Assembly: GCA_949296075.1 (NCBI GenBank)
Contig: CASFNG010000012.1
Span: 1-53,565 of the forward strand
Source of the DNA: an uncultured Parabacteroides sp.
Lineage (GTDB): Bacteria > Bacteroidota > Bacteroidia > Bacteroidales > Tannerellaceae
Length of the DNA: 53,565 bases
Direction: 5' to 3'
Shown here: positions 16,192-35,443 of the stretch, piece after piece
Numbering within the stretch: the stretch's first letter is position 1
Layout of the letters: each line of letters begins with the position of its first letter
Notes under the pieces: model-generated
The model's input: only the letters and a program-made list of their open reading frames with translations
Database searches by the model: none
What the model was told of the DNA's origin: nothing
Made by a program: the position numbers and the translations under genes

Positions 16192-18156
16192 ATGAGACTT
16201 GTTAACCGAATGATCTGGATTTTGCTCGCATGCTGCATGATGGATGCGGGCGTCGTATTAGCGGCGATAAATCCCAAGCCTTTTGTGATACCGGAACTGA
16301 AAGAGTGGAAAGGGGAGGAAGGATTCTTCACCCCGACGGAACGTAGCCGTATCGTCTGTCCCAAGGGCGACACGGAGTTGCTCCGTATCGGCCGGATGAT
16401 GGCGGACGATTGTGAGTCTATGTTTGGTTACCGCTTGGAGGTGGTAGAGGGCAAAGGGGAGCGCGGGGATCTTGTGCTTGCGCTCCGTAAGGATAAGCGA
16501 TTAGGTAAGGAGGGCTATGCGATCCGGATAGATGACCGGATACGGCTGACCGCTCCCGAAGCGATTGGAATCTATTGGGGTACCCGTACGTTACTCCAGA
16601 TGGCGGAGCAGAGCGAGGATTTCCGCCTGCCTAAAGGGGAGATCCGCGATTTTCCGGATTATGGCTTGCGGGGATTCATGATCGATTGCGGGCGTAAGTT
16701 CATCCCGCTCTCTTATCTACAAGACTATGTGAAAGTGATGGCTTATTATAAGATGAATACCTTCCAAATTCATCTGAACGATAATGGATTCAAGCAGTTC
16801 TTCGGACACGATTGGTCGAGTACCTACGCCGCTTTCCGTCTGGAGTCAGACACTTATCCGGGGCTGGCGGCTCGTGATGGCTTTTATACGAAACAGGAGT
16901 TTATCGATCTGCAAAAGTTGGCTGAGGATCATTTCGTGGAGATTATCCCCGAGATTGATGTCCCCGCTCATTCTTTAGCCTTTACTCATTACCTTCCGGA
17001 GATCGGGAGCAAGGAGTATGGGATGGATCACTTGGATCTGTTTAATCCCGAGACTTATCGTTTCTTAGATAATCTTTTCAAGGAATACTTGGAAGGTGAT
17101 GCGCCCGTCTTCCGGGGGCCGCGTGTGCATATCGGTACGGATGAGTATTCGAACAAGGATCCACGGGTCGTAGAGAAATTCCGGGCTTTCACCGACTATT
17201 ACATCCGTTATGTAGAGAGCTTTGGCAAGCAGGCGATGGTATGGGGAGCGTTGACGCACGCGAAAGGGGAGACTCCCGTGAAGTCGGAGAACGTGATCAT
17301 GAACGCTTGGTATAATGGATACGCCGATCCGGTGGAGATGGTCAAGCAAGGATATAAGCTGATTAGCATCCCCGACGGCATGGTGTACATCGTTCCTGCC
17401 GCAGGTTATTACTCTGACTATCTGAATACAGAGTTCTTGTATAACAAGTGGACACCGGCTCGGATCGGGAAAGTGGAGTTTAAGGAGCAGGATCCTTCCG
17501 TGTTAGGTGGGATGTTCGCTATCTGGAACGATCATGTGGGGAACGGGATCTCCACGCAGGATATTTATCATCGGGTATTCCCTGCCATGCAGACCATCGC
17601 GGCGAAGACGTGGAGCGGGGTATCCATATCATTGCCCTATGAGCGGTTTGATTCTCAACGGCACTTGCTGAGTGAGGCACCCGGCGTGAACCGTCTGGGC
17701 CGTATCGGTAAGGGGAAAGGTGTCGTGCACGAGCAAGCCACAGTGGCCCCAGGCAGCGAGTTGCCTTATCAGGAGATAGGTTATGATTACCGGGTAAGTT
17801 TTGACATTGAGGCGGAAGACGAGGTGAAAGGGACAGAATTGTTTCGCTCGCGGGAGGCGGTGTTTTACCTCTCCGACCCGATCCGCGGCCAATTGGGCTT
17901 CGCCCGTGACGGCTATCTGAACACGTTCCGGCAGAATGTGCGGAAGGGTGACCGGCTGCGTATCGCTGTTGAGGGCGACAATCGTTCGACCCGTCTTTAT
18001 GTGAATGATAAGTTAGTGGAGAACCTGGACATCAGTAAGATTTATTTCAATAGCGGGAAAGACTCTATCAATTATGTGCGGACCTTGGTATTCCCGTTGG
18101 GACAGGCCGGACAGTTTAAAAGTACGATTAATAACCTGAAGATCGAGCGTAAATGA
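16192..18156 (+). CDS. GH20 beta-N-acetylhexosaminidase, secreted
   Basis: A 654-residue protein with an N-terminal signal (hydrophobic core IWILLACCMMDAGVVLA). A GH20b-like domain (about 30-150) precedes the GH20 barrel (about 155-500). The catalytic pair D317-E318 lies in HIGTDEY. A C-terminal beta-sandwich (about 535-654) follows. GH20 enzymes remove terminal beta-linked N-acetylglucosamine or N-acetylgalactosamine by substrate-assisted catalysis. Placed 182 bases before a SusC/SusD pair on the same strand, it suggests that the locus handles amino-sugar-containing glycans such as mucin O-glycans, N-glycans or chitin/peptidoglycan fragments (inference). It has its own promoter; the gap to susC carries an imperfect stem (18164-18173 with 18208-18217) without a T run. 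Confidence 0.92.
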   Translation: MRLVNRMIWILLACCMMDAGVVLAAINPKPFVIPELKEWKGEEGFFTPTERSRIVCPKGDTELLRIGRMMADDCESMFGYRLEVVEGKGERGDLVLALRKDKRLGKEGYAIRIDDRIRLTAPEAIGIYWGTRTLLQMAEQSEDFRLPKGEIRDFPDYGLRGFMIDCGRKFIPLSYLQDYVKVMAYYKMNTFQIHLNDNGFKQFFGHDWSSTYAAFRLESDTYPGLAARDGFYTKQEFIDLQKLAEDHFVEIIPEIDVPAHSLAFTHYLPEIGSKEYGMDHLDLFNPETYRFLDNLFKEYLEGDAPVFRGPRVHIGTDEYSNKDPRVVEKFRAFTDYYIRYVESFGKQAMVWGALTHAKGETPVKSENVIMNAWYNGYADPVEMVKQGYKLISIPDGMVYIVPAAGYYSDYLNTEFLYNKWTPARIGKVEFKEQDPSVLGGMFAIWNDHVGNGISTQDIYHRVFPAMQTIAAKTWSGVSISLPYERFDSQRHLLSEAPGVNRLGRIGKGKGVVHEQATVAPGSELPYQEIGYDYRVSFDIEAEDEVKGTELFRSREAVFYLSDPIRGQLGFARDGYLNTFRQNVRKGDRLRIAVEGDNRSTRLYVNDKLVENLDISKIYFNSGKDSINYVRTLVFPLGQAGQFKSTINNLKIERK

Positions 18157-18338: not shown

Positions 18339-21300
18339 ATGAAAAAGGAACCAGTATTTGCCAGTTTAGTGTTGCTGTTGGTGGTCGCTTCACCGGCAGT
18401 CATGGCGGCATCAAGGGGGGAGACCGGTCCGGAGTCGGCCATGAACCGGACAAGCCCTGTCGTGAATGACACAAACGCGAAGAAAGTAAGAGGAACGGTT
18501 CTCGATGAGAGCGGTATCCCCGTGATTGGGGCGAATGTCGTCGTCGCGGGAACGACAAATGGAACGATCACGGACATGGACGGTAACTTCGTCTTGGATA
18601 ACGTGGAGGATGGTGCGAAACTGACCGTCTCGTATATCGGATACATCGATCATACCATTACGGTCGTCGCTTCTCAGTCGGAATACCGGATTACCTTGAA
18701 AGAGGATTCACAGAGCCTGGATGAGGTGGTAGTCGTCGGTTATGGTGTACAGAAGAAGGTGAACCTTACCGGTGCTGTGGCCGCGATCGGGGCGGATGAG
18801 ATTATCCAGGCTCCGGTGGCCAATATCTCGAATGCCATCGCCGGACGTTTGCCGGGTATCCGTGTGCAGAACACGGGAGGAACGCCGGGTGCGGAGTCAA
18901 CTGTCGATATTCGTGGTTTCGGTAAGCCGTTGATCTTGGTGGATGGGGTGGAACAACCCGGTTTCCAGATCGACCCGAACGAGATCGAGAGTATCTCCGT
19001 CTTGAAGGATGCCTCGGCGGCTATCTATGGTGTGAAGGCTGGTAATGGTGTGTTCTTGATTACGACCAAGAAGGGTGCTGCCGGAAAGGCGAAGATTACC
19101 TATAACGGATCAGTCGGTTTCCAGAACTTTACTGATTATCCGGATATGGTGGATGCGGCCGGGTACGTGGAATTGGCGGATGAGAACGCGATCAACCGCG
19201 GGAATGCCCCTGTGTTCGGACCGGATCAGTTGGCTCTCTATCAGGAGGGCACCCAAGAGGGGTACAAGAGTTATGATTGGAAGGACATTCTGACTCGCAG
19301 TAACGCCCCGCAGACCCAGCATAACATTAACGTGAACGGTGGATCGGAGAAGATCAAGTACTTTATGTCTGTCGGTTACTTAAACCAGGCGGGACTTTAC
19401 TCCACAGGGGATATTAACTTCTCCCGTTATAATTTCCGTTCCAATATATCTGCCCAGATCTCGAAATATCTGACGGCTGAGATGCAGTTGAGCGGTCATG
19501 TGCAGGACAAGATGTCGCCTTACGATGAGGATACTTACATCATTCACGGTATTACCCGTATGCACCCCTACTATTCGCCCTACGCGAACGACGAGGAGGG
19601 AGAGCATTATGGATTGACGAATTTCCAGAACCCGTTGGCTCGTTCGGACGCGGATGTCTCGGGTTATCGGAAAGAGCGGAAGAAATTGTTCAATGGCATT
19701 TTCTCCTTGAAATATGATATGCCGTTTATCCCTGGCTTGTCTGCCAAGGTGCTTTTCTCTTACCTGACGAAGGTGGAAGAGTATAAGACTTTTGCCAAGG
19801 AGTTCCAGCTGTACTCGTATGACAAGGCTACGGGCGCTTATAACTCCGTGTTTACAGGGAACTCTCCCTCGAACCTGACCCGGAAGGATTACACCTCGGA
19901 GCAGAACATGCTTCAGTTCTCCTTGAACTACAACCGGACATTCTTGGACGATCATAATATTTCCGCCTTGTTCTTGTACGAGCAGCGGGAGGACTTGGAT
20001 GATTATGTGGAGGCTTACCGGCAGTTCGCGATCGACGCGATCGACCAGATCAACTCGGGTTCCGATACGAACAAGAATAACGCCGGCGTGGCGAGCGAGC
20101 TGGCGAATGCCTCATTCGTGGGTCGTCTGAATTACGATTACGCGGGTAAGTATTTGTTCGAGTTCGCTTTCCGCGAGGATGGTTCCGCCAAGTTCTACAA
20201 GAACAACCGCTGGGGATTCTTCCCGAGCGTATCCGTGGGATGGCGCTTGTCCGAGGAGTCGTTCATCAAGGAGCGGACACAGATTTTCGATAACTTGAAG
20301 ATCCGTGCCTCTTACGGTGTGATGGGTGATGACCAGTTCCTGGATGCCAACGGAAATCCGCAGGTTCTTCCGTTCCAATATTTGGTAGGATATAATTATC
20401 CGGGCGGCACGAACTATATCTTCGGCAGCGAGGTTGTCAATTCCTTGGTTACGAGAGGTCTTGCCAATACGGAATATTCTTGGTTGACCTCCAAGATCTT
20501 GAACGTCGGTTTCGACGCCTCTTTGTGGAACCGTAAGTTAGAGGCCAGCTTGGATGTGTTCTACCGGAAACGGGATGGTTTGTTCGCTTACCGCTCGGGT
20601 TCTCTCCCGAATACTTTCGGAGCGTCTTTCCCGCAGGAAAACTTGAATAGTGATGACTTCCGCGGTTTTGAGTTGGTGCTGGGCCATACGAATACGGTAG
20701 GGGATTGGACTTACTCGATCAAGGGTAACGTATCGTACACCCGTGCGAAGAATCGCCATATCGAGCAGGCAGACCCGATCAACTCTTATTTGAACTGGAC
20801 GAGCAATTTCAGTGATCGCTGGAACAACATGGAGTTTGGCTATAAGTGCGTTGGACAGTTCCAGAACCAAGAGGAGATCAATAACTGGGCTATCCAAGAT
20901 GACGCGGGCAACACGACTTTGCTCCCGGGTGACTTGAAGTTCGAGGATTTCAACGGGGATGGCGTGATCGACAGCAACGATATGCAGCCGATCACTCGTA
21001 GCAATACGCCAGAGATCTACTTCGGCTTGGATCTGAGCGCGTCGTGGAAGGGATTCGATTTCTCCTTGTTGATGCAGGGAGCCACGAATTACAATGTTTA
21101 TATGTCCGGCTGTCTGGGGAACGCTATGTTTAATGGCTCGAATACCTTGGAGTGCTTCATGGATCGTTGGCACCGGGAGGATTTGTATGATCCCGAATCA
21201 GCTTGGATCCCGGGCAAGTATCCTTCGACTTGGGATTCCGGAAAGCCTTCCAATCTCCGGGTCTCTACGTTTAACCATATCAGCTCGTATTATTTGCGTG

Positions 21301-21503
21301 TGAAGAACCTTGAGTTTGGTTATACTTTCCCGAAAGAGTGGTTGAGCAAGATCTATGTGGATAGATTACGTTTGTATGTTTCCGGTAATAACGTGCTGAC
21401 CTTTGATAACCTCCCGTTTGGTGACCCGGAGGCTCCCAGCAGCGACCGAATCTTGTATCCGCAGTTGAAGATTTGGAATATTGGCGTAAATGTTACATTT
21501 TAA
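18339..21503 (+). CDS. SusC/RagA-family TonB-linked outer-membrane transporter
   Basis: A 1054-residue protein. It has a signal peptide (about 1-24), then a CarboxypepD_reg-like domain (VRGTVLDESGIPVIGANV, TDMDGNFVLDN, about 50-115). A TonB-box-like segment SLDEVVVVGYG precedes the plug domain with IRGFGKPLILVDGV and VLKDASAAIYG, and the beta-barrel ends in terminal Phe. A Ca-binding-like DFNGDGVIDSND lies near residue 870. It imports oligosaccharides or other large ligands across the outer membrane with its SusD partner (start 18 bases downstream). The promoter is unclear: a partial box around 18233 is weak. No SusR/HTCS or anti-sigma regulator is adjacent. Confidence 0.96.
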   Translation: MKKEPVFASLVLLLVVASPAVMAASRGETGPESAMNRTSPVVNDTNAKKVRGTVLDESGIPVIGANVVVAGTTNGTITDMDGNFVLDNVEDGAKLTVSYIGYIDHTITVVASQSEYRITLKEDSQSLDEVVVVGYGVQKKVNLTGAVAAIGADEIIQAPVANISNAIAGRLPGIRVQNTGGTPGAESTVDIRGFGKPLILVDGVEQPGFQIDPNEIESISVLKDASAAIYGVKAGNGVFLITTKKGAAGKAKITYNGSVGFQNFTDYPDMVDAAGYVELADENAINRGNAPVFGPDQLALYQEGTQEGYKSYDWKDILTRSNAPQTQHNINVNGGSEKIKYFMSVGYLNQAGLYSTGDINFSRYNFRSNISAQISKYLTAEMQLSGHVQDKMSPYDEDTYIIHGITRMHPYYSPYANDEEGEHYGLTNFQNPLARSDADVSGYRKERKKLFNGIFSLKYDMPFIPGLSAKVLFSYLTKVEEYKTFAKEFQLYSYDKATGAYNSVFTGNSPSNLTRKDYTSEQNMLQFSLNYNRTFLDDHNISALFLYEQREDLDDYVEAYRQFAIDAIDQINSGSDTNKNNAGVASELANASFVGRLNYDYAGKYLFEFAFREDGSAKFYKNNRWGFFPSVSVGWRLSEESFIKERTQIFDNLKIRASYGVMGDDQFLDANGNPQVLPFQYLVGYNYPGGTNYIFGSEVVNSLVTRGLANTEYSWLTSKILNVGFDASLWNRKLEASLDVFYRKRDGLFAYRSGSLPNTFGASFPQENLNSDDFRGFELVLGHTNTVGDWTYSIKGNVSYTRAKNRHIEQADPINSYLNWTSNFSDRWNNMEFGYKCVGQFQNQEEINNWAIQDDAGNTTLLPGDLKFEDFNGDGVIDSNDMQPITRSNTPEIYFGLDLSASWKGFDFSLLMQGATNYNVYMSGCLGNAMFNGSNTLECFMDRWHREDLYDPESAWIPGKYPSTWDSGKPSNLRVSTFNHISSYYLRVKNLEFGYTFPKEWLSKIYVDRLRLYVSGNNVLTFDNLPFGDPEAPSSDRILYPQLKIWNIGVNVTF

Positions 21504-21521: not shown

Positions 21522-23279
21522 ATGAAAAGCATAAAATTATTCGCGCTATCTCTATTGGGCCTATTCGGTATGTCGTCTTGCGTGAACGATTTCTTGGATA
21601 GGGAGCCCATGGATATAATCACCGAAGACTTGATTTGGTCTAACGAGAATGCCATCGAAGCCTATATGGCGGGGATGTATGAGGATATGTTCGTGGAGCC
21701 CCACGCTTGGTTGATCAACTGGGGCGTATTAGGGCATTATACGGACGAGTCCATGCGTAGCTATTCTTGGGGTTATCCCTATACGCCGGTGTTGGATCTG
21801 TCCAGCTTGGCGCAATGGGAGTACACGAAAGTCCGTACGGTAAACGAGTTCTTGGAGAAGATCCCGGAATCTCCCTTCACCGAGGAGCAGAAGCAGCGTT
21901 GGATCGCGGAGGCGCATTTCGTGCGTGCGTTCCATTATTTCACGATGGCGAAACGATATGGCGGAGTGCCCTTGGTTAAGGAGGTGCAGGAATATACCGG
22001 CGATAACGTGGAAGACCTGAAGATCCCTCGGAATACGGAGGAGGAAACCTGGAATTTTATAGCGGAGGAGTGTGATCTGGCGATAGCGGGCTTACCTGAA
22101 AGTTATGATGCCACGGAGCAATTCCGTGCCTCTAAGTACGCCGCCGCGGCGTTGAAGGCACGGGCTTTGCTGTATGCCGGCTCGATCAGTCGCTACGGCT
22201 CCGTTCAGTTGAATGGATTGGTTGGTATCCCGTCTGACAAGGCGGACGATTTCTTCCGTCGCTCGATGGAGGCTTCCAGCATGATTATCGAGTCCGGACA
22301 GTTCGAGCTGTTCAATCAAGAGGCAGACCCGGCGACGAATTACCAGCAGTTGTTCCTTGATAAGACCATGAATAGCGAGGCGATCTTCGTGAAGGCTTAT
22401 TCGACTCCGGATAAGGCGCATAATTTCGACTATGCGATGGCGGCTCCTTCCTTCAAGATCGACTGGGGAACGAATACCAGCCCCACGCTTGAGCTGGTGG
22501 AATCGTATGAGTATGTGGATGGATCGCCCGGTACCTTGAAGACGGCTGATGAAAACGGAAACCCGATCTATTATGAGAATGTGGAGGATATTTTCAAGGA
22601 TAAGGATCCGCGATTCTTCGCCTCGATCCTGTATCCCGGATGTCCGTGGCAGAATAGTGAGGTAGAGATCCGTAGAGGTATCATAAAGAGTGACGGGACA
22701 CGGGAGACAGCCTCGACATTTACGGATGTCTTTAGTGAGGATGCGTCATTGACCATTTCCGGAAAAGACGGTCTGGTCATGTCGGGCGACTGTAGCCGTA
22801 CGGGATTCTATATCAAGAAATTCATGGATCCTGTAAATCGAGTGGAACAAGACCGGTCGGAAACGAATTTCATGGTGTTCCGGTATGCGGAAACTTTGTT
22901 GAATTATGCGGAGGCCGCCTTTGAATTGGGACAGACAGATCAAGCCCTCCAAAAGGTGAACGAGGTGCGCAGGCGTGCCGGAATCCGGGAAAAGACCAGC
23001 TTGACGATGGAGGATATCCGGAACGAGCGACGGGTGGAGCTGGCTTTCGAGAACTTACGTTATTGGGATCTGGTACGTTGGCGTATCGCTACGGATGTCA
23101 TGAATAATACCGTATTCTCAGCCTTGATCCCTTGGCTGGACTATCGAACCGGGCAATATGTTTTCGAGAAATCGGGAAATACGCTAAATCTGCCTAAGAC
23201 ATTCTTGGAACGACAATATTATTTGGAGATTCCAGGTGTGGCGCAAAACGAATTGTTGGAGCAGAATCCGGGTTATTAA
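21522..23279 (+). CDS. SusD/RagB-family nutrient-binding lipoprotein
   Basis: A 585-residue lipoprotein (signal with lipobox MSSC, Cys20, followed by VNDFLDREP as in SusD proteins). It has TPR-like helices and the conserved C-terminal pattern NYAEAAFELG, VNEVRRRAGI, RRVELAFENLRYWDLVRW. It caps the SusC barrel and binds the ligand at the cell surface. It is separated from susC by 18 bases and from the DUF3823 gene by 21 bases, so the three form one transcription unit. Confidence 0.96.
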   Translation: MKSIKLFALSLLGLFGMSSCVNDFLDREPMDIITEDLIWSNENAIEAYMAGMYEDMFVEPHAWLINWGVLGHYTDESMRSYSWGYPYTPVLDLSSLAQWEYTKVRTVNEFLEKIPESPFTEEQKQRWIAEAHFVRAFHYFTMAKRYGGVPLVKEVQEYTGDNVEDLKIPRNTEEETWNFIAEECDLAIAGLPESYDATEQFRASKYAAAALKARALLYAGSISRYGSVQLNGLVGIPSDKADDFFRRSMEASSMIIESGQFELFNQEADPATNYQQLFLDKTMNSEAIFVKAYSTPDKAHNFDYAMAAPSFKIDWGTNTSPTLELVESYEYVDGSPGTLKTADENGNPIYYENVEDIFKDKDPRFFASILYPGCPWQNSEVEIRRGIIKSDGTRETASTFTDVFSEDASLTISGKDGLVMSGDCSRTGFYIKKFMDPVNRVEQDRSETNFMVFRYAETLLNYAEAAFELGQTDQALQKVNEVRRRAGIREKTSLTMEDIRNERRVELAFENLRYWDLVRWRIATDVMNNTVFSALIPWLDYRTGQYVFEKSGNTLNLPKTFLERQYYLEIPGVAQNELLEQNPGY

Positions 23280-23300: not shown

Positions 23301-23969
23301 ATGAAGAAAGTATTATTATATGCAGCGCTGGTTTGTGGCTTATGTGCCTGCGGACTGGATAATTATGATGCGCCTACCGCGACCTTGACAGGGGCGGTCA
23401 TTGATAGTGAGACGCGGGAGAATGTACCCGGGCAGGCTCAGAACGGCGCGAGAGTGCGTATGTATGAGTTCTACAACGATAAATGGACCGTTCAACCGAA
23501 TGACTCTTGGGTGACTCAGGAGGGTACGTTTACGAATGCGGCGGTTTTCACGGGAAGGTATCGCATCACGGTGGAAGGACCGTTCGAGACTGTGGAGCCT
23601 ATCGAGGTTGAGGTATCAGGTACGACCGAGCTGAATTTTGAGGTGACCCCGTTCTTGCGTATCTCCGCGGATGCTGTTTCTAACGAGGCCGGCAAGGTGA
23701 CGATGAACGCGTCTGTCGAGAATGTGCTGGGCCAGACCCTCCAGCTTGTTGAGTTCTACTGTGGAAAGACCCCTTACGTGGATCGGAATACATTTACGAG
23801 TAAAGGTTCCGCGACAATTCCGGACGAGATGACGGGGACCACTACTTATTCTTATACATTTGAGGGGCTGGATAGTGGCAAGACGTTCTATTTCCGGGTT
23901 GGAGGTTTAGCGGTTAATCCTGGTGGCTATTACAACTATAGTCCAGTGATTGAGGTTACTATCCATTAA
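23301..23969 (+). CDS. DUF3823 family lipoprotein
   Basis: A 222-residue lipoprotein (lipobox LCAC, Cys17, then GLDNYDAP) with two beta-sandwich domains. The first resembles a carboxypeptidase-regulatory-type fold (ATLTGAVIDSETRE, GRYRITVEGP). DUF3823 proteins regularly sit third after SusC/SusD and are thought to be surface glycan-binding or accessory proteins. The end of this gene is followed by a long imperfect hairpin (23989-24043) before the next gene set. Confidence 0.88.
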   Translation: MKKVLLYAALVCGLCACGLDNYDAPTATLTGAVIDSETRENVPGQAQNGARVRMYEFYNDKWTVQPNDSWVTQEGTFTNAAVFTGRYRITVEGPFETVEPIEVEVSGTTELNFEVTPFLRISADAVSNEAGKVTMNASVENVLGQTLQLVEFYCGKTPYVDRNTFTSKGSATIPDEMTGTTTYSYTFEGLDSGKTFYFRVGGLAVNPGGYYNYSPVIEVTIH

Positions 23970-23988
23970 AATAGAGGAGAAGTCTTAT

Positions 23989-24043
23989 AAAGGGTTGCCC
24001 TTTTCTTAGGTCTCATGATGGATTTAAGAAAGGACAACCCTTT
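23989..24043 (+). promoter_or_regulatory. Long imperfect hairpin between the SusCD locus and the carbamoyltransferase cassette
   Basis: AAAGGGTTG (23989-23997) pairs with CAACCCTTT (24035-24043), and the stem continues imperfectly with CCTTTTCTTA against TTAAGAAAGG. No T run follows. It could be a weak terminator, an RNA-processing site or a stabiliser that sets different levels for the genes on either side. Confidence 0.6.
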
Positions 24044-24063
24044 CCTAACAGAAGATCAGCGAC

Positions 24064-25875
24064 ATGAAGAAAGTATCCAAATACCTGTTAATCATAGGTG
24101 TATATGTATTGTTACCTTTTGTGATCCTTGGAAGTATTGAGCTTGGATTGCGGGTTTGTGGATACGGGGTGGACTTGGATCATCTGTTTTTGCAAACGCC
24201 TCAAGGCGATTATCTTTATCTAAACAAAGACATTAGCCGCCGTTATTTTACCCATTCGCAAGCGACCAACGGGAATGTGGAGTTCTTTCGGAAGAAGAAG
24301 CGGGCGAACACCTTTCGGGTCTTTGTCTTGGGGGAATCAGCGGCGATGGGATTTCCGTATCCTAATAATATCTCTTTCCAGCGAATGCTGAAATACCACT
24401 TGCGGAAGGCCAATCCAGACAAAGATGTGGAGATCATCAATCTTTCGCTGACCGCGATCAATTCATATACCTTCTACGATTTCGCGAAAGAGATTATCCA
24501 CCAAGAGCCGGATGCGGTGTTTATCTATGGCGGTCATAATGAGTATTATGGAGCTTTGGGGGTTGCTTCCAATAATAGGTTGGGAAGTTTTCCTGATTTG
24601 ATCCGGTTGTTTCTCCGATTGCGTCAGCTACGTATTTCCCAATGGTTGGATGCCCTGAAGACAGACTTGTCTCCGCGAGTGGACCAATCAGATAATTTGA
24701 TGAAATATGTGGTCAGGGAACAGGTGATCCCTTACCAAGGCGAGCTGTTTGAACGTGGGTTGGAGCAGTTCCGGTTGAACATGGAGTTGACATTGGGGCT
24801 CTTCAAGCGACACCAGATCCCCGTGTTTTTGTCAACAGTCGGCGTGAATTTGAGCGATCTGAAACCCTTTAAGAGCATTCCTGCCGAAGATAGGGCTGTC
24901 CCCGGGAGCGCTGATGATTATTATGAGCTGGGTCAACGTCAACTCCGGGAACGGGATAGTGTGGCGGCCTATGCCTCTTTTAGTCGGGCGAGGGATCTGG
25001 ATGCCCTGCGTTTCAGGGCTCCTAAGGAGATCAACGAGATTATCCGGGAGTTGGCCGCGACGGACGATAATGTCTATCTGGTGGATTCTGAAAAGGAATT
25101 CAACCGCCAAAGTCCGTATGGCATTCCTGGTCGGAAATTGTTGTTGGAACATGTGCATCCGACGATCGAAGGGCATCGGGTTATCGCGGGATGCTTCTTG
25201 GAATCCTTGCGGCAAGGGACGTTCGCGCGGATGAAGAATTTGCGGCTTGCCGATACGTTCGACCTATATGATTTTCCGGTTCTGGAATTCGATTCGTTAG
25301 CGGGCGAGTATGCCTGCCTGCAATTGCGTAAAGGTTTTCCTTTTTACGAGAAAGATCTGCCCGAGATCGTTCCACATACGGAGGTCGAGAAAATGGCCTG
25401 GGCTTTTGTACGGCAGAAGAACTGGTTCCAGTCGATGGATCAATTATATACGTATGCGCTTAACGCAAGGAACGATAGCTTGTGCTTAGAAATACTAAAA
25501 GTCCGAAGTTTAGATAATCCGTATGATATAACGTTCTTGGACCAGGGCGGAGAATTCGCCGAGATCCGGAAAGACTATCCTTTGGCGGTCGCTTTCTATA
25601 CGCGGAGTTTCCGGTTACGGCCGACTGTGCAAATGGCTCAAAATCTTGTGTCGAATCATTTGCGGTTGGATCAGCCAGATAGGGCGCTTCCGTATATCGA
25701 TTATATACTCCGTAATGGAGGAACCCGGTTCAAGGGATTGCAGGAGATGTGCCGAGAGATCATCCAATACAAGCAACGGTTGAATCAGCATCCAAGCGAT
25801 TCCATCCGGCATTCGATCGGGAGGATTTATCGGCAAATGGGTAATCAAGAGGCTGCGAGGAGGTATGATTTATGA
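24064..25875 (+). CDS. SGNH/GDSL-hydrolase-like membrane protein with TPR-like C-terminus
   Basis: A 603-residue protein with one N-terminal membrane helix (about 6-28) and the bulk outside the cytoplasm. SGNH blocks are visible: LGESAAMG (nucleophile Ser92), YGGHNEYYG (Asn159, block III) and EHVHPTIEGH (block V His, about 362-370). An insertion with a short tetratricopeptide-like stretch (YELGQRQLRERDSVAAYASFS) lies around residue 290, and the last ~130 residues are helical and TPR-like. Family members are esterases or O-acyltransferase-related enzymes acting on glycans and lipids. The exact substrate is unknown. It overlaps the carbamoyltransferase gene by four bases (ATGA) and so is translationally coupled to it, which suggests that both act on the same product. 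Confidence 0.82.
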   Translation: MKKVSKYLLIIGVYVLLPFVILGSIELGLRVCGYGVDLDHLFLQTPQGDYLYLNKDISRRYFTHSQATNGNVEFFRKKKRANTFRVFVLGESAAMGFPYPNNISFQRMLKYHLRKANPDKDVEIINLSLTAINSYTFYDFAKEIIHQEPDAVFIYGGHNEYYGALGVASNNRLGSFPDLIRLFLRLRQLRISQWLDALKTDLSPRVDQSDNLMKYVVREQVIPYQGELFERGLEQFRLNMELTLGLFKRHQIPVFLSTVGVNLSDLKPFKSIPAEDRAVPGSADDYYELGQRQLRERDSVAAYASFSRARDLDALRFRAPKEINEIIRELAATDDNVYLVDSEKEFNRQSPYGIPGRKLLLEHVHPTIEGHRVIAGCFLESLRQGTFARMKNLRLADTFDLYDFPVLEFDSLAGEYACLQLRKGFPFYEKDLPEIVPHTEVEKMAWAFVRQKNWFQSMDQLYTYALNARNDSLCLEILKVRSLDNPYDITFLDQGGEFAEIRKDYPLAVAFYTRSFRLRPTVQMAQNLVSNHLRLDQPDRALPYIDYILRNGGTRFKGLQEMCREIIQYKQRLNQHPSDSIRHSIGRIYRQMGNQEAARRYDL

Positions 25876-27686
25876 GCTATTTATTAGGAATATCCGCATA
25901 TTATCATGACGCTGCCGCTGCCTTGTTGAAGGATGGTGAGATCGTGGCCGCCGCGCAAGAAGAGCGTTTCAGCCGGAAAAAGAATGATCCCTCTTTCCCG
26001 GTGAACGCGATCAAGTATTGTTTGCGACAAGCCGGCATTACGCTCTCGGAGGTGCCCGAGATCGTCTATTACGAAAAACCTTATTTGAAATTCGAGCGGA
26101 TCTTGGAGATCTTTTACCGATACGCCCCGTGGGGAGCCGGACAATTCATACAAGGGCTTCCTTTGTGGATCGAGGAGAAACTGTTTTGCCGACGGATGCT
26201 TAGACGGGCGCTCTCCCAGATCGAAGGCTTCGATGCCGCGAAGCACAAACTTCTGTTTTCCGAGCACCATTTGTCACATGCCGCATCGGCATTCTTTGGC
26301 TCTAATTTCCGGGAAGCCGCGATCGTCACCGCGGATGGCGTGGGAGAGTGGAGTACCCTCTCCATCATGCGTGGGGAAGGTAATCGGATCTCTTTGTTGA
26401 AAGAGATGCGCTTCCCTGATTCCTTAGGCTTGTTGTATTCTTCCTTTACCTATTATTTGGGTTTCAAGGTGAATTCCGGGGAATACAAGATGATGGGGCT
26501 GGCGCCTTATGCCGATCGGGATGGAGAGCTAACCCGCTCTTACGTAGAGCGTATCAAGCGGCATTTATTGACACTTCATCCGGATGGCTCGATCTCATTG
26601 AACATGCGTTATTTCTCTTTCCATAAAAAGATGCGGATGGTCGATGAGAGGCGTTGGGAAGCCTTGTTCCAACTTAAGCCCCGTAAACCGGAGAGCGAAT
26701 TGCTCCCCCAGCATGCCTGTCTGGCGCTTGCCGCTCAGATTGTCGTGGAAGAGGCGCTTCTACGGATCGTGAAAACGGCGAAAGAGCTTACAGGATCCTC
26801 CAATTTGTGCTTGGCGGGCGGGGTTGCCCTGAACTGTGTGGCTAATGGAAAAATCTTGCGTTCGGGATTGTTTGAGCGGATGTTTATCCAGCCCGCTTCC
26901 GGTGATGCGGGAGGGGCGCTGGGAGCCGCTTGGGCGGCATATTATATCTACCAAGGGCATGAGCGTATTATCCGGGAGGGAGAAAAAGACCGGATGTGCC
27001 ATGCCCAGACAGGTCCGTCGTTCACGGATCAAGAAGTCCGGATCTTTTTAGATTCTTTGGAAGTTCCCTATACGTATATGGAAGAGGAACAGTTGTGTCA
27101 GCGTGTGGCGGAGCTGATCGCCTCGGGCTTATGCGTGGGATGGTTCCAGGGGCGTATGGAGTATGGCCCCAGAGCGTTGGGAAACCGGAGCATCTTGGCG
27201 GATCCGAGGGGAACAGGGATGCAGAAACGGCTAAACCTGAAGATCAAATTCAGGGAGAGTTTCCGGCCATTCGCCCCCGTTATATTGAAAGAGCGAGTGA
27301 GCGAGTATTTCGAGGGAGTACCTGAATCCGATTATATGCTACTGACTGCTGAGGTCACCCGCGCTCATCGGTTGGCTCTGCCCGATCATTATAAGGAACT
27401 AAGCGGGAAGGAGCGGTTGGCGTTGCCCAAGTCGGACGTACCTGCTATCACCCATGTGGATTTTTCTGCTCGGGTACAGACGGTTGATGCCTGCACCAAT
27501 CCGCGACTGACCCAGCTGATTCGTGCTTTCGACCGGCTTACCGGTTGCCCGTTGTTAATCAATACCAGTTTTAACGTACGGGGAGAGCCGATTGTCTGCT
27601 CTCCGCAAGATGCCTATCGCTGCTTCCGGGCGACTGACCTGGATGTGCTGGTACTCGGGAATTTCCTGATTTTGAAAAATAAATAA
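25872..27686 (+). CDS. NodU/CmcH-type O-carbamoyltransferase
   Basis: A 604-residue cytoplasmic enzyme. The N-terminal Kae1-like domain (LGISAYYHDAAAALL, EERFSRKKND, HHLSHAASAF, ADGVGEWST, GEYKMMGLAPYA, CLAGGVALNCVANGK) forms carbamoyl-adenylate from carbamoyl phosphate and ATP. The C-terminal domain carries GRMEYGPRALGNRSILADPR and NTSFNVRGEPIVCSP and completes transfer to a hydroxyl acceptor. Known relatives carbamoylate Nod factors, cephamycin, tobramycin and saxitoxin. This one sits in a membrane-protein operon with no antibiotic-biosynthesis genes, so the acceptor may be a glycan, lipid or envelope molecule (inference). It starts inside the end of the SGNH gene and ends one base before the 54-codon gene. 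Confidence 0.95.
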   Translation: MSYLLGISAYYHDAAAALLKDGEIVAAAQEERFSRKKNDPSFPVNAIKYCLRQAGITLSEVPEIVYYEKPYLKFERILEIFYRYAPWGAGQFIQGLPLWIEEKLFCRRMLRRALSQIEGFDAAKHKLLFSEHHLSHAASAFFGSNFREAAIVTADGVGEWSTLSIMRGEGNRISLLKEMRFPDSLGLLYSSFTYYLGFKVNSGEYKMMGLAPYADRDGELTRSYVERIKRHLLTLHPDGSISLNMRYFSFHKKMRMVDERRWEALFQLKPRKPESELLPQHACLALAAQIVVEEALLRIVKTAKELTGSSNLCLAGGVALNCVANGKILRSGLFERMFIQPASGDAGGALGAAWAAYYIYQGHERIIREGEKDRMCHAQTGPSFTDQEVRIFLDSLEVPYTYMEEEQLCQRVAELIASGLCVGWFQGRMEYGPRALGNRSILADPRGTGMQKRLNLKIKFRESFRPFAPVILKERVSEYFEGVPESDYMLLTAEVTRAHRLALPDHYKELSGKERLALPKSDVPAITHVDFSARVQTVDACTNPRLTQLIRAFDRLTGCPLLINTSFNVRGEPIVCSPQDAYRCFRATDLDVLVLGNFLILKNK

Positions 27687-27851
27687 ATGATGAATAGAGA
27701 CATGGAAACACTGAAAGAATTGCTGTTGTTTATAAAGGAACGAAAGAAATGGTGGTTACTGCCTGTCCTGATTTTTGTGCTATTGATCGGGCTTCTCTTG
27801 GTCGCCACGGGGAATCCGGTGGTCGCTCCGTTTATTTACACCTTATTTTAA
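27687..27851 (+). CDS. DUF5989/SxtK-like 54-residue membrane peptide
   Basis: The frame starts ATGATG directly after the carbamoyltransferase stop and encodes 54 residues. A charged amphipathic start (ETLKELLLFIKERKKWW) is followed by one membrane helix (LLPVLIFVLLIGLLLVATG) and the C-terminus PVVAPFIYTLF. The KERKKWWLLP and APFIYTLF pattern matches, from memory, the DUF5989 peptides found beside carbamoyltransferases, including the sxtK position of saxitoxin clusters. Function is unknown; it may recruit the enzyme to the membrane. It is easily missed by length cut-offs. The next gene starts four bases after its stop. Confidence 0.85.
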   Translation: MMNRDMETLKELLLFIKERKKWWLLPVLIFVLLIGLLLVATGNPVVAPFIYTLF

Positions 27852-27855
27852 ACCA

Positions 27856-28083
27856 ATGAACTGGAAAACTCTTTATCGCTGGTTGCTGAATGGCTGGATT
27901 CGCTTGGGCAAGGCACTGAACAAGATAACCTCACCTATCTTGTTAGGAAGCGTCTATTTTTTTGTCCTTACTCCGGTTGCGGCCGTATATCGTCTGTTCC
28001 ATCGGCAGGAAGAGAAGAGAGAAAGTACATTGGTCGATGTGCTTAAAACTTATACCAAAGACGATTTTATCAAGCTATGGTAA
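27856..28083 (+). CDS. SxtJ-like 75-residue membrane protein
   Basis: A 75-residue protein with an amphipathic Trp-rich N-terminus (NWKTLYRWLLNGWIRLG) and one membrane helix, SPILLGSVYFFVLTPVAAVYRLF. The C-terminus is charged and ends in DDFIKLW. The SPILLG...TP...R pattern resembles the second half of SxtJ-family proteins, which also neighbour carbamoyltransferase genes, but here only one helix pair remains, shorter than cyanobacterial SxtJ. It overlaps the next gene by seven bases. Function is unknown. Confidence 0.72.
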   Translation: MNWKTLYRWLLNGWIRLGKALNKITSPILLGSVYFFVLTPVAAVYRLFHRQEEKRESTLVDVLKTYTKDDFIKLW

Positions 28084-29813
28084 CGACGAGACACCTTAAT
28101 CCTTTTTCCTGCGCCTTGGGATTGCCGGTTTTTCTTTTGTTCACGGCGATCCTTTATGCCTTTTTCTACAATTATCACGTGTTATTCGTGGAGCAATTGC
28201 GCCTTTTCGAGTGGAATGGAGCTTATTTTAACGAGACGATTCGCGAGCCCGGTGGGCTGTCTGCCTATATAGGAGAGTTCATCTCGCAATTTTATCACTG
28301 GAACCATTTCGGTGGCTTGCTGATCGCCATCGGGATCGGAGGGGTATGTATGGCCTATAAGAGGCTGTTAGCCCATTGGGGATTGCCCGGGAGCGCTTCT
28401 TGGGCGTTGTTCCCTGCGGGAGCCCTATCGTTGGCTTTCTTGAGTTTGGATACCTCTTTTGGGTTGATTGTCGGGCTTCTGATCACCTTTTTGTTCGCAC
28501 GGATAACGATCCGGGAGCGATCGGGCTGGATCCGTCGGGCCCTCTCGCTCGTCGGGTTGCCGATTTGTTATTTCTTGACGGGGGCGGGTGTTTTTCTGTA
28601 TTTAGGGATTCTTTTGTTGGACGAGGCTATTTACTCCCGGGACCGGCGTTATGGCTGGTGGATAGTCTATGGGCTTCTCGCCATTCTTCCACCGCTTCTT
28701 GCCTATTACCGGTACGATATAACCGAGACCCAGGCATGGATCGGTACGGGCTGCTTGTTGACCGGTGAGTCTTTGTCCGGACTTTATATTCTTGCGGCGA
28801 CCTTGCTGCTTCCGCCCTTGCTCGCTGATTGGCTGAAAGGGATGCCGTGGTGGGGGAAGCGGAAGGTCGTTTTTGCGCTCGACCTGCTTGTTTGCCTCGC
28901 GGCCATCGGACTTGTCGTGAGCCATGTGAAGCTGAAAGACGAGCGGCTTTATCGCTTGCACCATTTGACAGCGCATGCCCAATGGGATCAGGTGCTCAAG
29001 GTGATGGAGGGAGAGTCGTCCAAGAATATCTTGCTCTCTTCTTATGCTAACATCGCGTTGCTGAACAAGCATTGCCTTTCGCAAAAGCAATTCCAGTTCT
29101 ACCAGACACCCCACGTGAATGAGTTCTGGTCATCTAACCATTTGCTGAATTACCTGACGGCAGAGACGTATTACCAATTGGATATGCTCTACGCCGCCCG
29201 GGCGTATATGTTCATGGCGAATACCCAGACTCCTTTAAGTCGATCTCCGCTTTACTTGAGACGTTTGGCGGAGATCGAATACCGCCGTGGAAATGCCGCG
29301 GCAAGCCTGAAATACGTGACCTTATTGGAGTCAACCCTGTTTTACGCAGATTGGGCGAGAGACTTCCGGAAGGCCATGAACGTCTCTTCTACATCGACGG
29401 ATGATGTACCCGCTTATCCGGAAAATGACTCCTTTCTGGCAAAAGAGATGCTCTACAACGTGGAGCAACATTGGCGGCAAAGTGGAGGCGACAATCCGAA
29501 AGTGGCCGATTTCCTGCTGGCCAGATATATGCTCAACAACCAGTATAATGCGTTCATCCAGTTGGCTAAGCGAACCAACCTGTCTCTTTCCGGTTGTGAG
29601 GCGTACCAAGAGTTCTTGTTGATGTACGCTTACCTGCTGAAAGATAATGCCCTGATCCAAGATTGGGGTATCGGTCAACCGGTGTTGGAGCGTTTTTACC
29701 GGTATTTGCGGATCAACCAGTCCGGAAAGTCCGACGAGGAAGTCAAGCATTTGTTAGAACCATACAGAGATACCTATTGGTATTACGTCCAATATAATAA
29801 GAATACGAAATGA
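28077..29813 (+). CDS. Polytopic membrane protein with helical-repeat C-terminus (DUF6057-like)
   Basis: A 578-residue protein. The first ~280 residues contain about eight hydrophobic helices (LPVFLLFTAILYAFFYNY, GGLLIAIGIGG, LIVGLLITFLFA and others). From about 290 to 578 it is soluble, helical and TPR-like (LNYLTAETYYQLDMLYAARAYMFMA, RRLAEIEYRRGNAAASLKY). I recognise it, from memory, as a Bacteroidales-specific family of unknown function (DUF6057). With an integral membrane half and a repeat-containing exposed half, it could be a scaffold or transport component for the product of the upstream carbamoyltransferase (inference). Start and stop overlap both neighbours, which indicates tight coupling. 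Confidence 0.78.
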   Translation: MVTTRHLNPFSCALGLPVFLLFTAILYAFFYNYHVLFVEQLRLFEWNGAYFNETIREPGGLSAYIGEFISQFYHWNHFGGLLIAIGIGGVCMAYKRLLAHWGLPGSASWALFPAGALSLAFLSLDTSFGLIVGLLITFLFARITIRERSGWIRRALSLVGLPICYFLTGAGVFLYLGILLLDEAIYSRDRRYGWWIVYGLLAILPPLLAYYRYDITETQAWIGTGCLLTGESLSGLYILAATLLLPPLLADWLKGMPWWGKRKVVFALDLLVCLAAIGLVVSHVKLKDERLYRLHHLTAHAQWDQVLKVMEGESSKNILLSSYANIALLNKHCLSQKQFQFYQTPHVNEFWSSNHLLNYLTAETYYQLDMLYAARAYMFMANTQTPLSRSPLYLRRLAEIEYRRGNAAASLKYVTLLESTLFYADWARDFRKAMNVSSTSTDDVPAYPENDSFLAKEMLYNVEQHWRQSGGDNPKVADFLLARYMLNNQYNAFIQLAKRTNLSLSGCEAYQEFLLMYAYLLKDNALIQDWGIGQPVLERFYRYLRINQSGKSDEEVKHLLEPYRDTYWYYVQYNKNTK

Positions 29814-31336
29814 GACTTGCCGCTTTTTATGTTTTCCTGCTATCCATCTGTTGCCTGTCCGGTTGCGACGGGAACCGCCTGCCTGTCGCGAAATCCGAAT
29901 GGGGGACTACTCCCCCTATTTATCCGGAGTACCAAGATGCCACTATCCCTGTGAATATAGCCCCGCTGAACTTCGAGATTCGTGACGAGGGGGAAGAGCA
30001 CATCGTCCAGATCAAGGGGAAGGGGGAACCTCTTGTGGTGAAAGGAAGAGGGGTGGTGGATATTCCGCTCAGGGCCTGGCGGAGACTGCTGGGCGAGAAT
30101 CAGGGAGACTCCCTTTCCGTCACCGTGTTTAGCCGACAAAAAGAGGATTGGTATCGTTATCAGCCGTTCGCATGGACCGTTTCCTCAGATTCCATCGACG
30201 GTTATGTGGCTTATCGTCTGATCGAGCCGACTTACGCTAACTGGAACGGTATGGCCATCTGTCAGCGGGATCTCGCCTCGTTCGAGGAGACGGAGATCCT
30301 CTCGAACCGGAAGAGCGGGAACAATTGTATCAACTGCCATACTTTCAATCAGGGTAATCCCGACGAGCTGGTCATGCACATGCGCAAGGTGAATGCCGGC
30401 ACGCTCTTGATCCGGGATGGGGTATGCCAGAAACTGAACACCCAGACCCCTTATACCATCTCCAATTTTGTCTATCCGGACTGGCATCCCTCGGGGGAGC
30501 AGATCGCTTTCTCCACGAATATTACGCAGATGTCGTTCTACGATGCCCACCCCAAGATCATCGAGGTATATGACGCTCAATCCGATATCGTGATGTATGA
30601 CATCCAAAGGAACGAGGTTTATACGAGCCCCATGCTTTCTGATCCTGATAAGTTGGAGAACTTCCCCTTTTTCGCTCCTGACGGGAAGCGGCTCTATTTC
30701 TGTACCTGCGACCGGGTGGATAGCCTGCCCCAGCAGTTCGAGAAGGTGAGGTACCGCATTTGCTCGATCGGGTTTGACTTGGCGAGCCGCTGTTTTGACG
30801 AACGTGTCGATACGCTTGTCGATCTCACCGCCTCCGGCAAGAGCGCTACCTTACCCAGCGTGTCGCCTGATGGACGATTCATCCTCTGTTCTGTTGCCCC
30901 AAGCGGCTGTTTCTCCAGTTGGATCCCGGAATCCGACCTTTACCTGTACGATCTGCGGGAAAAGACCGTCCGCCCCGCCTCCGAATGGAACAGCGAACAG
31001 GCGGAGAGCTGCACGAGCTGGTCATCGAACAGCCGTTGGGTCGTGTTCAGCAGTCGCCGGGAAGATGGGGTGTATAACCGGCTTTACATCGCCCACATAG
31101 ATGCGTCGGGCCGCTTGGGTAAACCTTTCTTGTTGCCCCAGCGGGATCCGGCGTTCAACTTGCGCGACATGAAGGCTTACAATCTGCCTCGCCTTGTCAA
31201 GGGAGCGGTGCGCGTCTCGCCCGTGGCGATTGGCCGTTGTGCCGAGTCGGCCTCGGAAAAGGCGGTTCGTTTCAACGAACAGCTCTATAAGCCGGAGATC
31301 CATACTCCGACGGGGAGCGTGAGCGAGGTGAATTAG
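29810..31336 (+). CDS. TolB/PD40-like lipoprotein with a c-type haem motif (CxxCH)
   Basis: A 508-residue lipoprotein (lipobox CLSGC, Cys19). A beta-rich N-terminal domain (about 40-160) is followed by NNCINCHTF, a perfect CxxCH haem-attachment motif (C173, C176, H177). A PD40/TolB-like propeller then follows, with repeated Asp-Gly-Lys/Arg-x-hydrophobic blocks (FVYPDWHPSGEQIAFSTN, FFAPDGKRLYFC, SVSPDGRFILC, SWSSNSRWVVFSS). It faces the periplasm or surface. A haem protein in a carbamoyltransferase cassette is unexpected: it could be an electron-transfer partner, or the motif could bind metal. It overlaps the preceding gene by four bases and is the last gene of the cassette; a terminator lies at 31397-31434. 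Confidence 0.83.
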   Translation: MRLAAFYVFLLSICCLSGCDGNRLPVAKSEWGTTPPIYPEYQDATIPVNIAPLNFEIRDEGEEHIVQIKGKGEPLVVKGRGVVDIPLRAWRRLLGENQGDSLSVTVFSRQKEDWYRYQPFAWTVSSDSIDGYVAYRLIEPTYANWNGMAICQRDLASFEETEILSNRKSGNNCINCHTFNQGNPDELVMHMRKVNAGTLLIRDGVCQKLNTQTPYTISNFVYPDWHPSGEQIAFSTNITQMSFYDAHPKIIEVYDAQSDIVMYDIQRNEVYTSPMLSDPDKLENFPFFAPDGKRLYFCTCDRVDSLPQQFEKVRYRICSIGFDLASRCFDERVDTLVDLTASGKSATLPSVSPDGRFILCSVAPSGCFSSWIPESDLYLYDLREKTVRPASEWNSEQAESCTSWSSNSRWVVFSSRREDGVYNRLYIAHIDASGRLGKPFLLPQRDPAFNLRDMKAYNLPRLVKGAVRVSPVAIGRCAESASEKAVRFNEQLYKPEIHTPTGSVSEVN

Positions 31337-33016: not shown

Positions 33017-33035
33017 ACGTTTAGGTTGATAAATA

Positions 33036-34652: not shown

Positions 34653-34673
34653 TAGAGCGTTGGATCGTGAATA

Positions 34674-34717
34674 TCCCCTGTTCGTACGTTAAAAGTACGG
34701 GCAGGGGACATTTTTTT
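34674..34717 (+). terminator. Terminator of the FadL-type porin unit
   Basis: TCCCCTG (34674-34680) pairs with CAGGGGA (34702-34708), with an inner CGTAC/GTACG helix, followed by CA and seven T. Confidence 0.9.
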
Positions 34718-34755
34718 AGGTTTTGAAATGAAAAATTTGCCGGTCTAAAATATTT

Positions 34756-34785
34756 TTTGTTTTTTTGCCAACATAAATAACATTG
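34756..34785 (+). promoter_or_regulatory. Probable promoter of the ECF sigma factor gene
   Basis: TTTG (34756-34759), an 18-base spacer and TAACATTG (34778-34785) match the Bacteroidetes pattern with one change, in a very AT-rich stretch about 65 bases before the ATG. Confidence 0.55.
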
Positions 34786-34849
34786 TATAACTATTAAAAC
34801 CTCACGCCTATAGCATAACATTACTCGAATAAACCAAAAGATTAAGGTA

Positions 34850-35443
34850 ATGAAGACTTTGAGAATGATGGCTGATGAAGAATTGGTCATCCTTTATGCA
34901 AGAGGTAATAATGCCGCTTTCGACGTTTTGTTGAATCGGCATAAAAGTAGTATTTACTCCTATATCTATTTTATAGTCCATAATAAAGAATTGGCGGAAG
35001 ATATTTTTCAAGAGACTTTCGTGAAGGTCATCATGACGATAAAGCAAGGTCGATATACCGAGAACGGGAAGTTCAAGGCTTGGATTACCCGTATCGCGCA
35101 TAACTTGATTATCGATAATTTCCGGCAGGAGCGTAGCGAGAACACGATCTCGAATGATGAGGTGGAGGTCGACTTGTTCAACAATATTAAATTGTGTGAC
35201 GGGACGGTAGAGGACGATTTGGTGCAACATCAGGTGCTCTCGGACGTGAAGAAGCTGGTTAAGCATTTGCCGGATAATCAACGGGAGGTTCTTGAGATGC
35301 GTTATTATCAGGATCTTAGTTTTAAGGAAATCGCTGATATAACGGGCGTTAGCATTAATACGGCATTAGGACGTATGCGCTATGCGATCCTGAACATGAG
35401 ACGTATGGTGTGCGAGAACCAAATCGAATTGTCGATGGCATAA
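34850..35443 (+). CDS. ECF-type sigma-70 family RNA polymerase sigma factor
   Basis: A 197-residue protein with region 2 (FDVLLNRHKSSIYSYIYFIVHNKELAEDIFQETFVKV, then FKAWITRIAHNLIIDNFR, about 22-95). A region-4 helix-turn-helix follows (LPDNQREVLEMRYYQDLSFKEIADITGVSINTALGRMRYAI, about 143-185). It binds RNA polymerase core and directs it to a specific promoter set, which is not identifiable here. No FecR-type anti-sigma gene follows; instead a 57-codon gene lies 72 bases downstream. It is therefore not of the usual SusCD-linked sigma/anti-sigma type and its control is unknown. Confidence 0.93.
   Translation: MKTLRMMADEELVILYARGNNAAFDVLLNRHKSSIYSYIYFIVHNKELAEDIFQETFVKVIMTIKQGRYTENGKFKAWITRIAHNLIIDNFRQERSENTISNDEVEVDLFNNIKLCDGTVEDDLVQHQVLSDVKKLVKHLPDNQREVLEMRYYQDLSFKEIADITGVSINTALGRMRYAILNMRRMVCENQIELSMA

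Follow-up and report, generated by a model that had tools for sequence, protein, structure and literature searches.

The DNA analysed here (the window) is a 53,565-nt contig of an uncultured Parabacteroides sp., whose genome of 2.7 Mb is 84% complete. Six open reading frames (ORFs) on the + strand, at 24064..31336, encode in order an SGNH protein, an O-carbamoyltransferase of the NodU/CmcH type, a DUF5989/SxtK-type microprotein, an SxtJ-type membrane protein, a DUF6057 polytopic protein and a PD40 lipoprotein. The junctions between them are, in the same order, an overlap of 4 bases, a gap of 0, a gap of 4, an overlap of 7 and an overlap of 4. An earlier reading of this DNA from its letters (the original prediction) had taken the six genes for one functional cassette, and the gene number, strand, overlaps and gaps that it gave all match the ORF coordinates. 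Pfam places five of the six genes above curated cut-offs, the exception being the SGNH gene. The block consists of two modules lying 3' of a SusC-SusD pair: a carbamoyltransferase core, usually with the SGNH gene, and a separate pair made of DUF6057 and the CxxCH/PD40 lipoprotein.

The same 296 genomes of the phylum were searched with the DUF5989, Carbam_trans_N and SxtJ profiles. The Pfam cut-off of 24 for the carbamoyltransferase was passed by 145 genomes, and an enzyme was called high-scoring at 269 bits or more, a line set after the scores were known (the next lower score was 260.7). DUF5989 and a high-scoring carbamoyltransferase were both present in 103 genomes and both absent from 189, while one genome had DUF5989 alone (G047, on a short contig and with an internal stop) and three had the enzyme alone (G211, G227 and G291). 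Two sub-cut-off DUF5989 matches (G273, G140) were excluded from this table, for which a naive Fisher test, uncorrected for kinship, gave p = 3e-75. All 93 genomes with SxtJ (E up to 0.001) fell inside the high-scoring set, and among the 296 no genome with only weaker carbamoyltransferases had SxtJ or a DUF5989 above cut-off. Outside the genus, the carbamoyltransferase lay within 3 kb of DUF5989 in 61 of 99 loci, some of these stretches ending at contig ends, and in four further loci DUF5989 had been missing from the gene calls. Since the core genes are present together even where they are unlinked, they are likely to have a joint function. There is thus good evidence that the carbamoyltransferase, DUF5989 and SxtJ are one system, and the original prediction was right that the small proteins accompany the enzyme (in 103 of 104 genomes for DUF5989 and in every SxtJ genome).

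A second sample, the named loci, comprised the best 80 of 561 loci found using four carbamoyltransferases of the high-scoring type. It is therefore biased to this type, and it overlaps slightly with the phylum set (G054/L181, G127/L193). SxtJ was present in 76 of the 80, and a local DUF5989 in 73 after a frame search (68 at first pass), with some of the remaining seven at contig ends. The titles of these loci include Bacteroidetes, Pelagibacteraceae (SAR11), Nitrospira, Omnitrophota, Gemmatimonadota, Pyrinomonadaceae, Pirellulaceae, cyanobacteria, Bdellovibrionaceae and others. On a Methylosinus plasmid (L256:7932-13994), SGNH-SxtJ-DUF5989-carbamoyltransferase are preceded by a gene for an AMP-binding protein and by a 240-base gene for a small hypothetical protein. 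In Sinorhizobium meliloti 1021, the SxtJ-type, DUF5989 and carbamoyltransferase genes are consecutive and an SGNH-type gene is divergent from them, its identity and that of SxtJ being judged by eye.

The carbamoyltransferase gene (25872..27686, +) encodes both Carbam_trans_N (2.2e-79) and Carbam_trans_C (8.6e-71). The nearest solved structures are those of novobiocin carbamoyltransferase and GdmN. Residues H132, H136, D155 and D345 align with the GdmN metal ligands H133, H137, D156 and D333 and are invariant in 10 aligned sequences; the ligands are those given in the available text of PMC9633730, which prints the last two as Glu while the chain shows Asp. The NodU nodulation equivalog NF041651 scored 150 bits, below its curated cut-off of 1000. 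By its domains and metal ligands, the window enzyme is assigned to the NodU/CmcH class III type. It resembles TobZ, GdmN and the novobiocin carbamoyltransferase of this class along the full length of the sequence and in the metal ligands. However, those enzymes modify antibiotics or other secondary metabolites, whereas the window type co-occurs with DUF5989 and SxtJ. Class III enzymes form carbamoyl-AMP, as described in the same portion of PMC9633730.

Carbamoyl phosphate synthase genes stand beside the core in 12 loci in all. carA and carB directly follow DUF5989 in six loci from three families (L129, L138, L142, L143, L158, L162), a carB-like gene lies 5' of the carbamoyltransferase in L118, L121, L125 and L217 and shortly 3' of it in L218, and carA-carB are divergent from the core, about 1 kb away, in L175. 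A carB match in L227, on the opposite strand and 5-6 kb off, was excluded from the count. Because carA/carB adjoin the core in these 12 loci and the window enzyme retains the GdmN metal ligands, the donor of the core is, on sequence grounds, carbamoyl phosphate. In the six DUF5989-carA-carB loci the carbamoyltransferase is elsewhere in the genome.

The microprotein gene (27687..27851, +) matches Pfam DUF5989 at 7e-22, and its true start is probably the ATG at 27702, since the family length is 49. The product has about 50 residues and, judged only by hydropathy and charges, a single membrane segment with an N-in/C-out orientation. Across the family the N-terminal flank is basic, with RKK almost constant, and the last 14 residues contain no K or R in 165 of 182 copies. 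By the positive-inside rule, the tail should therefore face outside. All 182 copies (166 distinct tails) have Phe at -1 and Tyr at -4, and 181 of them carry FxYxxF at the extreme C-terminus; the window copy ends in FIYTLF, and APFIYTLF is the most frequent sequence of the last eight residues. Such an ending was found in only four of 20,596 other ORFs (at least 40 residues, 194 loci), and of 2,643 non-DUF5989 ORFs with hydrophobic tails none had it. Three of the four are 478-493 residues long and end in FIYFQF (L082, L083, L195), and the fourth has 231 residues and ends in FKYRIF. The L082 protein is an MBOAT by Pfam, and the similar length and tail suggest that those of L083 and L195 are MBOAT proteins too. 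In L082 (L082:8949-17169) and L083, the carbamoyltransferase is separated from DUF5989-SxtJ by the FIYFQF gene and SGNH-like genes, as though an acetylation and a carbamoylation machine shared the locus. Long frames in L078 and L079, considered as natural fusions of DUF5989, were read instead as chance open frame 5' of the gene.

The FxYxxF motif was reportedly first described in 2023. The accessible text of PMC12148441 identifies FXYXXF as the motif for acyl shuttling in DltX and at MBOAT C-termini, in which the Tyr passes the acyl group to the serine of an SGNH protein, and PMC11035591, likewise available in part, gives the C-terminus of DltX as FLYFGF.

The SxtJ gene (27856..28083, +) encodes a short form of 75 residues, which matches Pfam SxtJ at 3.5e-6, above the cut-off, over profile positions 53-93 only. 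Hydropathy indicates one membrane segment in the window form and three segments in 105 of 148 SxtJ proteins. A Trp and a Pro are strongly conserved in the family.

The first gene of the block (24064..25875, +) matches Lipase_GDSL_2 at 2.1e-6, scoring 28.8 bits where the cut-off is 32.9. The SGNH-block residues S92, N159, H363 and H365 are invariant in 11 aligned relatives, and a structure model (mean predicted local distance difference test score 86.6) has an N-terminal helix at 2-31 and a C-terminal part of helical repeats. From these residues and the model, the assignment as an SGNH protein with a membrane anchor and a TPR-like C-terminal part holds. When its profile was compared with solved structures, the matches listed were TPR proteins (best 60 of 365). 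The long form of this protein (E up to 1e-40) was found in 93 of the 296 phylum genomes; 92 of these belong to the 106-genome carbamoyltransferase set, and the other match is a fragment (G226). SGNH-like genes were counted with an iterated profile, for which some drift is possible, and reached 0.114 per kb near the core vs 0.019 per kb far from it in the named loci, and 0.070 vs 0.025 per kb in the phylum and genus loci. Of the 80 named loci, 50 had such a gene no more than 2.5 kb from the core. An N-terminal membrane segment was predicted in 91 of the 96 near-core SGNH-like proteins of at least 280 residues. For the families of neighbouring genes, 106 of 148 operon-like neighbours and 103 of 179 far genes were scanned; 13 of the near neighbours were of the GDSL family and five of the AlgX acetyltransferase family, neither of which is among the 25 families listed for the far genes. 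The SGNH protein thus belongs to the core system, as had been suspected from the window.

We propose, with a probability of roughly 0.55, that the core (SGNH protein, carbamoyltransferase, DUF5989 and SxtJ) is a machine for O-carbamoylation across the membrane, operating in the manner of DltX/DltD or PatA/PatB without an MBOAT. The cytoplasmic carbamoyltransferase would make carbamoyl-AMP from carbamoyl phosphate and ATP, a reaction established for its class. SxtJ would help to put the carbamoyl group on the Tyr of the C-terminal FxYxxF of DUF5989, a hexapeptide that would be on the outer side of the membrane or close to it, and SxtJ is also the candidate for bringing the group to this outer Tyr. 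The SGNH protein, anchored outside, is proposed to be the extracytoplasmic carbamoyl transferase, which would accept the group on its Ser and from there transfer it to a surface-glycan hydroxyl. Aryl carbamates carbamoylate catalytic serines, and thus a transfer of carbamoyl from Tyr to Ser is chemically reasonable. Since the machine sits 3' of SusC-SusD in the genus, the acceptor may be a surface glycan or a captured one. In Ensifer canadensis, DUF5989 and the carbamoyltransferase lie in an exopolysaccharide cluster together with a GDSL gene and, where SxtJ would be, a gene for a hypothetical protein; this points to a surface polysaccharide. A supposed link of the Sinorhizobium locus to a cluster for an arabinose polysaccharide did not hold up; the neighbours were others, and no paper was listed with those locus tags. 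O-carbamoyl groups are known on envelope glycans, namely on the lipopolysaccharide (LPS) core of Pseudomonas (PMC8005017, in its accessible part).

The likeness to the Dlt system (DltB, DltX, DltD) lies in a single-pass microprotein ending in FxYxxF together with an anchored transferase of the SGNH type. It differs in that the window set is proposed for carbamoyl and not D-alanine, that neither an MBOAT nor a carrier protein was seen, and that no sequence link of DUF5989 to DltX was found. O-acetylation by PatA/PatB and by the alginate-type AlgI/AlgJ/AlgX likewise combines a C-terminal FxYxxF shuttle with an SGNH partner, and AlgX-family genes are among the near neighbours counted above. In the core, however, FxYxxF belongs to a microprotein of its own, and a soluble carbamoyltransferase serves as donor enzyme.

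The strongest rival places the whole reaction in the cytoplasm. The carbamoyltransferase would act there on a small molecule or a lipid-linked sugar, DUF5989 and SxtJ would serve it just as anchors or regulators, and the SGNH protein would be a decarbamoylase or an unrelated esterase. Both small proteins are plausible as anchors, and a 2020 review calls sxtJ and sxtK regulatory (PMC7073992, in the part available). The Pseudomonas carbamoyltransferase WapO was assigned to the LPS core heptose, and the accessible part of PMC8005017 names no partner for it. However, a mere anchor needs neither the Tyr and Phe found in every DUF5989 tail nor an ending of the acyl-shuttle type, and the near-core SGNH proteins are mostly membrane-anchored. 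We therefore consider this explanation rather unlikely, though still a serious one.

Several results weigh against the transmembrane machine. The long SGNH form is missing from 14 of the 106 genomes in the carbamoyltransferase set, and only 33 of 72 phylum and genus loci had an SGNH-like gene at 2.5 kb or less from the core. A shorter SGNH-like gene does stand among or beside the core genes in at least four of the 14 genomes, as identified by Pfam in G190 (L077), G108 (L156) and G275 (L082, weak matches) and by profile in G194 (L072). The DUF5989 copies were gathered with profiles that include the C-terminal end, so the constancy of FxYxxF comes partly by selection, the motif being part of the family profile. 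The DltX profile gave no match in the window DUF5989 at E up to 1, and no DltX chain was found. No MBOAT was present among the 19 window genes scanned with Pfam, the rest of the genome being unsearched. SxtJ has no invariant histidine. One locus of the genus (L063:833-4805) has SGNH-SxtJ-DUF5989 followed by a GH127-like gene in the place of the carbamoyltransferase; the GH127-like gene was named by eye from its likeness to a gene of L065, and the genome was unsearched elsewhere for a carbamoyltransferase. Family GT2 glycosyltransferases were as common near the core (3 of 106) as far from it (3 of 103), those of group 1 made up 4 of 106 near genes and are not listed for far ones, and epimerases made up 5 of 103 far genes. 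An enrichment of glycosyltransferases near the core was thus not seen, and since they are similar near and far, the neighbours alone do not indicate glycan synthesis. Finally, to our knowledge no component of the core carries carbamoyl through a membrane, and a carbamoyl-serine intermediate may turn over slowly.

In the genus, DUF5989 was found in six of 38 genomes, and the full six-gene order in two of these six. The second is G504 (L066), with SusC-SusD-DUF3823-SGNH-carbamoyltransferase-DUF5989-SxtJ-DUF6057-PD40 as in the window. In the window, SusC (18339..21503; Pfam Plug and CarbopepD_reg_2), the SusD-type lipoprotein (21522..23279; SusD_RagB) and the DUF3823 protein (23301..23969; Pfam) are all on the + strand and are 88%, 84% and 72% identical to their G504 counterparts. 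The DNA of window positions 18320-31203 matches L066 in two long pieces (72% and 67%) with a gap between them, and the match stops close to where the lipoprotein gene ends. The genes 3' of the block differ. The GH20 beta-hexosaminidase gene of the window (16192..18156, +; Pfam) is a neighbour outside the block common to both, since the 620 comparable bases 5' of the block in L066 had no match to its end. Thus, the link to SusCD suspected earlier is real and recurrent, but GH20 is not directly upstream in G504. L062 and L065 have the order SusC-SusD-SGNH-SxtJ-DUF5989-carbamoyltransferase without DUF6057 and PD40, and L064 is like them with broken SGNH and carbamoyltransferase frames. SusC and SusD lie 5' of the core in the window, L062, L063, L065 and L066, that is in at least five of the six genus loci (L064 was untested). 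Window SusC shares only 27-30% identity with its counterparts in L062, L063 and L065, and hence the association spans divergent loci. The directly adjoining SusC-SusD-DUF3823 is as expected of a polysaccharide utilization locus, whereas the genes 3' of it form a modification cassette and not hydrolases only. Between the DUF3823 and SGNH genes there is a 55-nt hairpin (23989..24043, +). The RNA fold of 23970-24063 is at -28.4 kcal/mol (z -2.6; 3 of 200 shuffles were as good), and the hairpin is possibly an attenuator separating the SusCD part from the cassette. Downstream of the operon (31709-35443) are genes for a 435-residue protein without a Pfam match at E up to 1e-4, a FadL-type outer membrane protein and an extracytoplasmic function (ECF)-type sigma factor.

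The last two genes of the block encode the DUF6057 protein (28077..29813, +; Pfam 1.3e-101) and the PD40 lipoprotein (29810..31336, +; Pfam 3.3e-16), in which CxxCH takes the form CINCH. The original prediction had them export or finish the product of the same machine. Their overlapping genes, the shared block and DNA homology in G504, and a Rikenella metagenome-assembled genome in which carbamoyltransferase-DUF5989-SxtJ is convergent with a DUF6057-PD40 pair (L177:158-6010) agree with this. However, four of the six genus loci lack the pair, and the pair occurs without the core, near SusCD or glycoside hydrolases. DUF6057 has a PD40 lipoprotein beside it in 22 of 25 loci (of the three exceptions, two are cut off by contig ends) and in 19 of 20 further loci of the family, often in tandem or near SusCD; none of these 20 has core genes. 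DUF6057 matched the source genome in five stretches, two of which fall in a single gene, which makes four DUF6057 genes; no core gene was found in 17-18 kb around each of the three besides that of the block. Of the 98 family genomes, 87 have DUF6057, against the six of 38 genus genomes with DUF5989. A special kinship of the L177 and window copies was rejected by the DUF6057 tree. That all six genes form one machine is therefore improbable, and we regard the DUF6057 protein and the lipoprotein as an accessory pair of glycan loci, separate from the core, whose genes were added to the operon in the lineage to which the window and G504 belong. Of the membrane-bound carbamoylation machine for an envelope molecule that had been envisaged, the core and the SGNH protein fit, but a place of the pair in it is not supported. 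All 12 PD40 proteins aligned have CxxCH, and the source genome has a match to a ResB-type maturation protein; the lipoprotein has the CxxCH by which c-type cytochromes are recognised, and haem binding is putative. No solved structure matched it at E up to 0.1. Tandem DUF6057-PD40-DUF6057-PD40 arrays lie 3' of SusC-SusD in five family loci (L263, L264, L274, L275, L276), and in L067 a pair is near GH26 and GH130.

Least probable is that the genus set serves glycan breakdown, with the SGNH protein stripping esters from glycans imported by SusCD and the carbamoyltransferase recycling or detoxifying something, for although SusCD is directly 5' in five of the six genus loci and GH20 or GH127 is near some, the core is also found in the exopolysaccharide cluster of Ensifer canadensis and in many other phyla, where SusCD is generally not expected.

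The core resembles part of the saxitoxin clusters, in which sxtI, sxtJ and sxtK are grouped with the GDSL gene sxtL (PMC2679770 and PMC2684587, in their accessible parts). Since sxtL belongs with these genes, the comparison should include SxtL, the counterpart of the SGNH protein, which went unnamed when the likeness to sxtI-sxtK-sxtJ was pointed out; the likeness itself stands, because a carbamoyltransferase, SxtJ, DUF5989 and a GDSL/SGNH protein are in one cluster in both, the SGNH protein of the window matching the GDSL profile below its cut-off. Three cyanobacterial loci (L240, L248, L253) have carbamoyltransferase-SxtJ-DUF5989-SGNH in a row. The window set differs in its place behind SusCD, its short SxtJ and the C-terminal repeats of its SGNH protein. 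In 2009, SxtJ and SxtK were labelled 'unknown' beside the carbamoyltransferase (PMC2679770, in the part available). No literature was found on DUF5989 or DUF6057, and none among the matches listed joined SxtK with DltX, an acyl shuttle or MBOAT, in a search outside which subscription journals largely lie. The link of the enzyme with SxtJ and SxtK is already in print, and the new point is the reading of DUF5989/SxtK as a shuttle.

The AT3-SGNH proteins are the other known acyl route (PMC9833829, in its accessible part). Tentatively, and at a little under even odds, we suggest that DUF5989/SxtK is a tyrosine carbamoyl shuttle and that the core with its SGNH protein is a third acyl route across the inner membrane onto surface polymers, beside MBOAT-SGNH and AT3-SGNH, which would occur in many phyla including SAR11 and would be the source of the carbamoylation genes of saxitoxin clusters. 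The shuttle reading gives each of the four core proteins a testable job. If it is true, the acyl-tyrosine mechanism would extend to a system free of MBOAT, and carbamoylated surface glycans would be predicted in very many bacteria.

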